Of a stretch of 64,000 nucleotides of DNA, positions 38,253 to 39,656 are shown piece by piece. How positions within the stretch are numbered: the first letter of the stretch is position 1; each line of letters opens with the position of its first letter. Where the stretch lies: NCBI RefSeq assembly GCF_003096655.1, contig NZ_QEKQ01000002.1, positions 434,001 to 498,000 of the forward strand. The letters run 5' to 3'. The position numbers and the translations under genes were made by a program. Under the pieces are notes generated by a model. That model worked only from the letters and a program-made list of their open reading frames with translations, was not told the origin of the DNA and searched no databases. The DNA is from Tamilnaduibacter salinus (GTDB taxonomy: Bacteria > Pseudomonadota > Gammaproteobacteria > Pseudomonadales > Oleiphilaceae).

Positions 38253-38334
38253 CCACTCCGCCTGCATCGTTTGGAGGCATCCGTATCGACGGAGAATCGT
38301 GGAACACGCTGCCGCTGGTCGTTTCGCGGAAAAT

Positions 38335-38389
38335 CGCGGCCTGTCAGCGGCGCGCCCTTCTGGGGCCCCTGAAAGGTCTGACAGCCGCG
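38335..38389. repeat. Long stem-loop downstream of the alcohol dehydrogenase
   Basis: CGCGGCCTGTCAG (38335-38347) pairs with CTGACAGCCGCG (38378-38389), a 12-base-pair stem with one bulged C; the loop contains a smaller palindrome, AGGGGCCCC-like. No T-tract follows. It abuts the first repeat copy (38397-38487) and may be part of the same repetitive element or the operon terminator. Confidence 0.6.
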
Positions 38390-38396
38390 TTGCGCT

Positions 38397-38487
38397 GACT
38401 CGATTTGGAACCGCCAAACCGTCGCCATCGCGCGTTGCTCTCGGAGCGTTCAGAGGCTCCGTCAGCGAATGAACCAGACGAGACACT
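38397..38487 (-). repeat. Repeat copy A (inverted relative to copy B)
   Basis: A 91-base sequence that, read on the minus strand, begins AGTGTCTCGTCTGG and aligns over nearly its whole length with 38562-38645 read on the plus strand. A 23-base core (38411-38433 versus 38611-38633) is identical; the rest shows scattered differences. Only one terminal repeat is clear here, so it is a degenerate or partial copy. Confidence 0.8.
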
Positions 38488-38561
38488 CCCCCCAAGACGC
38501 ACGCCACTCTTTCTGGCAGAATACCCCGCCGAACCGGTCGGTTCATGATTCGTTAGACTCT

Positions 38562-38671
38562 AGTGTCCCGTCTGGTCCATCGCTGAGGGACTGACAGGTT
38601 TGGAACCAAAGCGCGATGGCGACGGTTTGGCGGCTCCAAATCAAGCCAGTGAATGAATCAGAAGAGACACT
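38562..38671 (+). repeat. Repeat copy B, a 110-base MITE-like element with terminal inverted repeats
   Basis: The left end begins AGTGTCCCGTCTGG (38562) and the right end, read on the minus strand from 38671, begins AGTGTCTCTTCTGA. The two 24-25-base ends match at about 19 positions. The interior holds the 23-base core shared with copy A. No transposase frame and no clear target duplication are seen. It lies within the upstream region of the binding-protein gene and supplies the spurious extra N-terminal codons of that frame (from 38616). Confidence 0.72.
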
Positions 38672-38726
38672 GACCAGCCCGTCTTTTATGGATGCGCCCC
38701 TGCCCTTCGGTATTGCGGAACGACAG

Positions 38727-39530
38727 ATGATGTCAAAGCCCATAAAACACGCTCTATTTGCCTTGGTGCTCATTCTGGCGGTCTGGGTCTCGATCGCGAA
38801 CGCCGCGCAGTCTCGCCACAGCGACCTGAGCCAGACTCACCCAATTCCGGAAGTGATCCGGTTCAACGTCTCTCCAGACGGCTATCCGCCCTATATCATC
38901 GTCGATGATACGTCCGATAAATCCGTCGAAGGCATTGTCTGGGACATTGTCCATTTGGCATGTCAACGACTTGGTTGCCGCCTTAAGCCCCGACGGGTTC
39001 CCAGAAAACGCTTGGAATCGCTGCTGCTCAAAGACTACGTGAACGTCACAGCAATGGCCCCTTTATGGATGGAGGATCCGGACAAATACCTTTTCTCCAA
39101 TCCGCTGGTTCCCATTCGGGAGGTTCTGTTTTTCCGCGCCGGCGATCGATTTGCGTTTGAATCTCCTGACGACATCAAAGGGAAGACCATTGTCACGCAC
39201 ATTGGTTATCGATACCCGGCGGTACAGCACCTGTTCCGGAGTGGACAGGCCAAGCGATTCGATGTGCCACAGGACAAGGATATGTTCCGATATTTGCTCC
39301 ACGGCTCACGCTTTGACGCCCTGATTGCCGACAACCTGGTTGGTCGTTGGCTGATGGAACAAAACCAGTGGGATGGTCAATTCGTCGTGTCTGACAATCA
39401 CCTCAGCCGCATTCATTACCGCCTAATGGTCCGCCCGGACATGAAAGGGTTCATCGACGCTTTCAATCAAGTCCTCTCCGACCTGAAAGACACGGGTAAA
39501 ATCAAGGCGATTATCCAACGTTACCTCTAG
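38727..39530 (+). CDS. Orphan periplasmic solute-binding protein (SBP family 3)
   Basis: 267 residues from ATG 38727. A signal peptide (about 1-28, ending IANAA) precedes a family-3 binding fold: VSPDGYPPYIIVDD, GIVWDIVHLACQRLG, the second-lobe segment DDIKGKTIVTHIGYRYPAV, and a closing LKDTGKIKAIIQRYL. No permease or ATPase is adjacent on this strand, so it is an orphan. Base composition looks less GC-rich than neighbours. It is enclosed by repeat ends at 38647-38671 and 39561-39585, suggesting acquisition. The longer frame from 38616 reads through the repeat and is probably not the real start. Confidence 0.85.
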   Translation: MMSKPIKHALFALVLILAVWVSIANAAQSRHSDLSQTHPIPEVIRFNVSPDGYPPYIIVDDTSDKSVEGIVWDIVHLACQRLGCRLKPRRVPRKRLESLLLKDYVNVTAMAPLWMEDPDKYLFSNPLVPIREVLFFRAGDRFAFESPDDIKGKTIVTHIGYRYPAVQHLFRSGQAKRFDVPQDKDMFRYLLHGSRFDALIADNLVGRWLMEQNQWDGQFVVSDNHLSRIHYRLMVRPDMKGFIDAFNQVLSDLKDTGKIKAIIQRYL

Positions 39531-39560: not shown

Positions 39561-39586
39561 TGTGTCCCGTCTGGTTAATTCGTTGA
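39561..39586 (+). repeat. Isolated repeat end (copy D)
   Basis: A 25-base match (GTGTCCCGTCTGGTTAATTC at its core) to the terminal repeats of copies A, B and C, in the same orientation as the left end of copy B. It lies 30 bases after the binding-protein gene. The interior of the repeat is not recognisable to its right, before the ybbP 3' end. Confidence 0.72.
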
Positions 39587-39656
39587 CCTACTGCGTACCG
39601 CTGACGCCTCTGGTCAAGGCGCTGGCACGACGTCTATCGCGCAGACTCCCAGTTGG

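Follow-up and report, generated by a model that had tools for sequence, protein, structure and literature searches.

Inverted repeats in a Tamilnaduibacter salinus contig as probable degraded copies of a MITE with IS630-type ends and a widely shared fold

MITEs are usually viewed as passive leftovers of insertion sequences (ISs) and are defined by their ends. The described system that works most like the element reported here is RUP (repeat unit of pneumococcus) together with IS630-Spn1. In the available excerpts of two papers (PMC2229807, PMC3049150), RUP resembles our element in carrying no gene, in having terminal repeats like those of the IS630 family, in targeting TA, and in having ends that pair in the transcript. 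It differs in its length of 107 bp and in its hosts, pneumococcus and, at lower density, S. mitis, and arms with a small hairpin are not described for it in those excerpts. Identity of the element with RUP was rejected on size (263/264 bp against 107 bp); the sequences were not compared. IS630 and ISY100 of the Tc1/mariner group share the TA duplication with the element but encode their own transposase. From the part of the ISY100 work available (PMC2170065), this family cuts, pastes, and duplicates TA, and a title cited there (Tenzen and Ohtsubo 1991) gives the preference of IS630 for TA in CTAG. MITEPsy1 of Pseudomonas syringae, which was trapped while moving, is given in excerpts of PMC3189936 as 100 nt long with ends GGAAGGTCTGAAAAAGCC, a 4-nt duplication, and insertion at CTAG or YTAA; it is thought to be moved by ISPsy2, the MITE is listed as "IS5?", and similar sequences are reported there from Marinobacter aquaeolei. 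Insertion at CTAG is shared with our element, while the ends differ and the sequences were not compared. ERIC/RU-1, Correia/NEMIS, and other bacterial MITEs are likewise described, in the partial sources available, as forming a short stable stem-loop, some with TA termini. As excerpted, Delihas 2007 (PMC2229807) describes bacterial repeats, with the exception of CIR of Caulobacter, as a 5'-3' stem-loop without arms. Chunjie of Geobacter (235 bp) and QMITE1/2 of Coxiella fall in the same size range and have shortened forms, but they occur in other hosts, and QMITE2 has direct repeats of 7 to 9 bp (PMC10969869, in part). A search of the open-licence literature, which did not cover ISfinder, found no MITE of such a kind from Marinobacter and no description of the fold reported below.

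The window analysed is the whole 64,000-nt stretch of T. salinus contig NZ_QEKQ01000002.1, and the repeats in question lie between positions 38309 and 39622. A preliminary description, made from the letters alone, had noticed two inverted relatives, copies A and B, sharing an identical 23-base core. This was borne out: the core was read directly from the sequence in both copies, and the inverted pair comprises arms of 43 nt at 38395-38437 and 38607-38649 that are 91% complementary. In copy A the core occupies 38411-38433 (plus strand); it is part of arm 2 of the full element (alignment A1) and is inverted in A relative to B. Copy A itself had been placed at 38397-38487 and proved to be longer. 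It was assigned to 38309-38486 on the plus strand, where the covariance model described below scored 80.1 bits (E = 1.9e-22, model positions 1-264), while blastn aligned 38343-38486 to the right part of a full element (L011) with 89% identity over 148 nt. The segment 38309-38338 is supported by the model only. Copy A covers the right-hand portion of the element (reference about 117-264), with the right end GACAC intact at 38486, the first hairpin arm absent, and the left end decayed, and under the model it is probably a form that has lost the first arm.

Copy B lies on the minus strand at 38563-38670 and runs from GTGTC (38563) to GACAC (38670). The claim that it is bounded by terminal inverted repeats was upheld, although its size is 108 bp rather than 110 bp, the outer A and T belonging to the flank. 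Aligned to the 264-bp reference it matches at 89 of 108 positions and lacks reference positions 29-175, an assignment that blastn also supports; it was therefore taken as a short deletion form rather than as the unit, which is usually 263 or 264 bp. Locus L241 resembles it, lacking reference 20-166. The flanking CTA (38560-38562) and TGA (38671-38673) were read directly and represent the two halves of the TA target, the right one decayed since TAG is usual here. Most of both arms is absent from copy B, and its fold barely beats shuffled sequences (z = -1.34; 22 of 200 shuffles as good, DNA parameters). Copy D, at 39562-39622 on the plus strand, is indeed a further end as had been proposed, but more than an end alone: it is the first 61 nt of the full element, with 98.4% identity to L016 over 61 nt by blastn, and is preceded by CTT where CTA is usual. 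A degenerate end suggested at 38538-38557 was reported by neither blastn nor the covariance model and is treated as unproven. The open reading frame called at window positions 38616-39530 starts within copy B; by eye, a start near 38730, ahead of a signal-peptide-like stretch of a solute-binding-like protein, looks likelier. We consider it likely that the window copies are degraded copies of a MITE that is moved by IS630 transposases in Marinobacter, and that this MITE is an old element whose fold has been kept while its sequence and ends were replaced.

The intact element is 263 or 264 bp long and carries two 26-bp terminal repeats, GTGTC...GACAC. In the T. salinus genome (3.40 Mb, 23 contigs), 66 matches to a 291-base query were obtained, some of which are one place on both strands since the query holds inverted copies. 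The end pattern, at up to 3 mismatches, matched 57 times (31 + 26) against 0 for the reversed pattern. Counted from the listing, these end motifs comprise 15 facing pairs (30 motifs) and 27 solo ends. Fourteen copies with both ends were extracted, every one of 264 bp, and the fifteenth pair encloses a 175-bp form (L236). Seven copies of this genome, L011 counted, are 96 to 100% identical to L011. Among all loci collected to that point there were 80 end pairs, 66 of them distinct, and 50 of these 66 measured 263 or 264 bp. The element is too short for a transposase of the family (frames of 364 to 385 aa), and it meets the criteria used for bacterial MITEs: a length below 500 bp without a transposase, terminal inverted repeats, target duplication with an empty site, and many dispersed, similar copies. 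The proposal of a MITE-type element that has no gene and needs a foreign transposase thus agrees with the many copies, the copies in relatives, the TA flanks, the empty site, and the IS630-family ISs having the same ends. The search of the genome and of related genomes that had been recommended found many dispersed copies, in other genomes also, so that neither outcome that would have refuted the proposal, an absence of further copies or their occurrence only within a longer non-mobile sequence, was met.

Several features of individual copies were also observed. Solo or truncated ends are numerous in the T. salinus genome (L226-L235, L237-L245) and outnumber the facing pairs. Short forms of 171 to 194 bp (L028, L037, L045, L087, L126, L236) have deletions wholly or largely within one hairpin arm, as would be expected if a folded arm had been passed over. 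Arm 1 and more is lost in L038 and L044, and the deletions in L075, L232, L233, L237, L240, L242, and copy B are not of the one-arm kind. A 765-bp element of Marinobacter bryozoorum (L120:5175-5939) has both MITE ends, with a 177-aa open reading frame replacing most of the interior; the product is membrane-protein-like by eye and has no Pfam match, and the element is possibly a case of a gene carried by the MITE. The right flanks of L011 and L018 have nearly identical GGAGYCTGCGCGGYAGAAAGTCGCACCG after the TA, which is another, unidentified repeat.

Of 64 distinct insertions (150-300 bp), 40 are flanked by TA at either end and 38 by the fuller context CTA..TAG, while CTAG accounts for only 364 of 18,366 NTAN sites in loci from a scan of named genomes. 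The comparison of occupied and empty sites called for in the preliminary description was possible for one empty site. One copy (L012) lies in a T. salinus gene encoding a transglutaminase-like domain (PF01841, 30.2 bits, cut-off 23), and at the corresponding spot the orthologous locus L183 carries the continuous sequence CTCTCTAGCCC. The L012 insertion therefore amounts to 264 bp + TA, the right copy of the TA now being TC. Eight orthologous loci from relatives were compared, and all five that aligned usefully (L181-L184, L188, but not L185-L187) are uninterrupted. At CTAG sites, a 2-bp TA duplication cannot be distinguished from a 4-bp CTAG duplication with an element reading TGTC..GACA, and the TA rule was followed; L064 favours duplication of TA, and one IS (L162) favours 4 bp. 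In the part of PMC3606827 available, ISHsp2 of the IS630 family is stated to duplicate TTAA. In L009, L019, L015, and L041 the element abuts, at the TA, another copy or a sequence beginning GTGTCCC, which suggests repeated insertion at the same TA.

The end sequence, which had not been recognised as a known family, proved to be common to IS630-family elements. In contigs of M. segnicrescens the same end adjoins a reading frame with an IS630-type C terminus (PF13358, 38.4 bits, cut-off 28.6). Five ISs of 1180 to 1182 bp in the genus of M. changyiensis have both ends of the element and TA on both sides, and the three of their transposases that were scanned matched NF033545 (IS630) at 293 to 302 bits (cut-off 100). 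The ends of IS and MITE are alike at up to 19 of 19 nt. The possibility that the element is an internal-deletion derivative of the IS was rejected, as its interior is unlike that of the IS: of 712 blastn matches between IS and MITE, 710 touch an IS end (longest 32 nt), and the other 2 are of 13 and 16 nt (E = 0.53). The body would thus be an old element of its own rather than an internally deleted IS. In Marinobacter, these 1.18-kb ISs would supply the IS630-family transposase in trans, and the enzyme is inferred, from the ends and the TA, to cut the element out and paste it into the TA of CTAG. Mobilisation of the Marinobacter element by an IS630 transposase is an inference from sequence, namely from the same ends and the flanking TA; no transposition was observed.

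A protein search with the Marinobacter-type transposase gave matches at E <= 0.001 in 31 of 151 genomes of the family, a figure that includes some more distant IS630 proteins or fragments. In the T. salinus genome, a PF13358 search found no DDE_3 transposase, and nothing like the Marinobacter-type protein was found, despite 49 end matches there. As no transposase is now detectable, the copies in this genome would reflect a past or outside supply. To look for a concealed parent, the solo ends of the genome were inspected visually and with blastn, without a transposase search, and were found to be truncated or internally deleted copies. Ten genomes have 10 end matches or more; 8 of these, T. salinus among them, lack a match to the Marinobacter-type protein. 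The MITE thus outlives, or manages without, a resident parent.

A blastn search with the 264-bp element gave matches in 10 of 58 genomes (the query genome included), all of its own family. This family contains Marinobacter, judging from two pairs of identical loci, L031 and L049 (M. halodurans) and L033 and L070 (M. changyiensis). Within that family, the end pattern at up to 2 mismatches was present in 56 of 151 genomes (own included) and 5 of 16 genera. The scan of named genomes returned at least 101 matching stretches, and among the 80 matches listed, 77 were titled Marinobacter, the others being from Halomonas, a deltaproteobacterial entry, and a Nostoc MAG contig. The 264-bp element had no blastn match in plasmids or phages; three distant elements compared with plasmids gave one partial Halomonas match and two without a match, and among viral contigs a single contig held a single end.

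The full copies share a predicted fold consisting of an outer stem of about 30 bp, two hairpin arms of about 98 nt each, and a 7-nt hairpin, CCNNNGG, between the arms. For L011 (264 nt), the predicted energy was -177.8 kcal/mol (z = -18, with no shuffle as good), and the opposite strand gave z = -15. Alignment A1 contains 51 of the 55 distinct elements of 245 to 279 nt (L010, L013, L015, and L079 were excluded); 99 pairs were predicted, 97.3% of the cells are paired, and compensatory (double) changes occur in 56 of the 99 pairs. There were 537 double-changed cells, compared to 148.7 in shuffles and 40 to 86 in slid structures. Rfam had nothing at gathering score for sets of 3 and 10 loci.

A covariance model built on this fold revealed a wider family. 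At E <= 0.001, matches were obtained in 32 of 145 genomes (25 of 92 genera) of the order sample, in 45 of 229 (40 of 196) of the class sample, and in 42 of 299 (25 of 154) of the phylum sample; the samples overlap, each includes the T. salinus genome, and the E-values of the model are rough. Copy numbers are lower bounds, only 13, 8, or 6 candidates per genome having been scored. Marinobacter belongs to the Gammaproteobacteria (Pseudomonadota), and 29 of the 42 matching genomes in the phylum sample lie outside that class, 26 of them in one family (f229). Three genomes (G039, G047, G049) were negative by blastn yet positive with the model. The matches listed are mostly 259 to 269 nt long, some being shorter or partial. 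The folds of 74 distant elements, chosen mostly among the best model matches, were predicted without constraint. Among the first 44, 40 show all four parts (outer stem, first arm, small hairpin, second arm) at almost unchanged positions, and in 37 the small hairpin is of exactly 7 nt; the misses are two two-armed structures without the small hairpin, one irregular structure, and one failure (L293). A further 20 copies gave the shape in 18 cases (not in L343 and L344), and all 10 phylum-sample loci gave it, 6 of them from outside the class. Left out of this folding were L284, L287, and L294 (16 of 19 new class loci taken) and L305 (10 of 11 new phylum loci). The small hairpin is CCNNNGG in those printed, lies inside a longer hairpin in three, and has 8 nt in L302, and the dimensions are nearly constant in distant genomes at about 31, 98, 7, 98, and 31 nt. 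In a wide alignment, paired cells amount to 93.0% and double changes occur in 95 of the 99 pairs, although its rows were fitted to the fold model and comprise both strands of nearly every element. In one genome outside the family (G411), all 8 copies are 97 to 100% identical and have TA on both sides, if the terminal A and T are counted as TA. In the order-level set TA stands on both sides in only 14 of 28. Outside the family, 19 of 26 fold-bearing genomes had no DDE_3 match, and the loci examined from the other 7 yielded no IS630 bounded on each side by the element's ends. According to the model, the spread is class-wide in the Gammaproteobacteria and includes at least one family outside, and it would be across this range that sequence and ends turned over around a constant fold. 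The ends AGGGAAGCTCTGAAAA of L255 and L260 resemble, by eye only, those of MITEPsy1, so that a transposase from a different family may act on this group.

A possible role of the fold was sought in the mismatches that the stems tolerate. Were a single strand active as RNA, G.U would be expected far above A.C. In pairs common to the folds of both strands, the ratio of G.U to A.C was 69:46, compared to 25:4 in a control of RNase P RNAs from this family (Fisher p = 0.008; 28 of 30 loci, L207 and L224 excluded), and this weak excess of G.U speaks against a simple one-strand RNA. When the G.U and A.C events were separated by position, arm 1 had 29 against 5 and arm 2 had 8 against 17 (p = 4e-5), while the outer stem had 12 against 11. 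G.T and G.A are the stable mismatches, and A.C and C.T the unstable ones. The Marinobacter set has G.T 67, A.C 3, A.G 3, and C.T 6 in arm 1, and G.T 3, A.C 38, A.G 4, and C.T 36 in arm 2; the A.G and C.T counts of arm 1 run contrary to the rule. In the distant set (Watson-Crick-only folds), the counts are G.T 16, A.C 4, A.G 21, and C.T 7 in arm 1, G.T 6, A.C 27, A.G 2, and C.T 19 in arm 2, and G.T 18 and A.C 13 in the outer stem. Of 36 genomes, each represented by a single element, 28 obey the rule, 2 contradict it, and 6 tie; L293 was dropped from this count. Naming the other strand first would leave the pattern unchanged because reverse complementing swaps the arms. On each strand it is thus mostly the first arm encountered that retains stable mismatches. 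From this we infer selection acting on single strands that are read from either flank toward the interior, most simply as RNA, with lagging-strand DNA as the alternative. The fold would accordingly be selected in single-stranded form, with the first arm met mattering most. Kissing loops between the arm tips numbered 86 against a mean of 74.4 with re-paired loops (p = 0.015, 36 elements), a signal that is suggestive only. In distant elements the loop at the tip of arm 1 tends to have the form T...T and that of arm 2 the form A...A, and the two are sometimes fully complementary (TGGTT/AACCA).

The same asymmetry, each strand's 5' arm tolerating mainly G.T and G.A and its 3' arm A.C and C.T, could be read as the mark of a functional RNA element working in both directions, for instance in protecting mRNA 3' ends or in termination, that was spread by transposition and is kept by the host. 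Pneumococcal repeats are thought, according to excerpts of PMC3049150, to affect co-transcribed genes through their structure, which lends this explanation some support. It would lead one to expect a preference for gene 3' ends, and no such preference is seen in 51 insertion sites (21 tandem, 11 convergent, 11 divergent, 6 intragenic, and 2 at a contig edge), which occupy ordinary intergenic positions of all kinds; the overall strand bias is also weak. Judged by this placement, a two-way terminator was unsupported in comparison with 47 control CTAG sites of the same loci (23 intragenic, 13 tandem, 5 convergent, 5 divergent, and 1 at an edge). A host-kept RNA element is therefore doubtful but remains possible.

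It may also be asked whether the covariation requires selection at all. The same MITE could have a functionless fold in which template switching between the halves of a palindrome (quasipalindrome correction) makes the double changes. By parsimony, 119 double events led from one Watson-Crick pair to another, compared to single changes of 47 to G.U, 34 to A.C, and 49 to other mismatches. Such an excess of double changes over wobble intermediates is what template switching would produce, and several internal deletions fall largely within one arm, as if hairpins form in the DNA. It is possible that template switching accounts for part of the covariation. As the whole explanation it is unlikely, since it leaves unexplained the constant dimensions and the CCNNNGG hairpin in distant genomes, as well as the division of stable and unstable mismatches between arm 1 and arm 2, respectively.

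The ends of the element fall into groups (GTGTC, AGGGCCTGTTCACACT, AGGGAAGCTCTGAAAA, GTACTCTTTCAAGG, and CTAAGACAAACG) that are completely different from one another. It could be argued from this that the relatives outside the family are independent MITEs of the same shape, or generic palindromes admitted by a permissive model, the more so as the model holds only 0.589 bits of information per position and for 22 of 63 distant elements blastn found nothing similar in the Marinobacter set. A weak match was found for the other 41 of 63 (E < 1e-3 in a small database, L293 having been dropped), which speaks for common descent. Moreover, in a control run on 94 kb of sequence surrounding RNase P genes in the family, the model scored 9.2 bits at best, compared to 90 to 180 bits for the folded distant elements of the order and class samples, and 68 of the 74 elements refold freely into the shape, so that independent origin is held to be very improbable. 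Local duplication of an ordinary intergenic hairpin that is not mobile, such as a terminator or operator, would suit an inverted pair lying close together between two genes, but it is refuted by the dispersed copies and is at odds with their exact ends, TA flanks, and empty site.

Beyond the window copies as degraded IS630-moved MITEs, we tentatively propose, short of an even expectation, a mobile class defined by its fold: a four-way junction of about 264 nt whose ends, and presumably transposases, perhaps from more than a single family, have been repeatedly exchanged and whose 5' arms are selected in single-stranded form. Here it is the ends that change, while the fold of the body persists through a bacterial class and beyond. 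Whether the fold serves transposition, survival in the host, or the RNA of neighbouring genes is now testable, and the covariance model provides a means to annotate a repeat family unmatched in Rfam. If a fold-defined class is the true description, what is conserved in this mobile DNA would be a shape.
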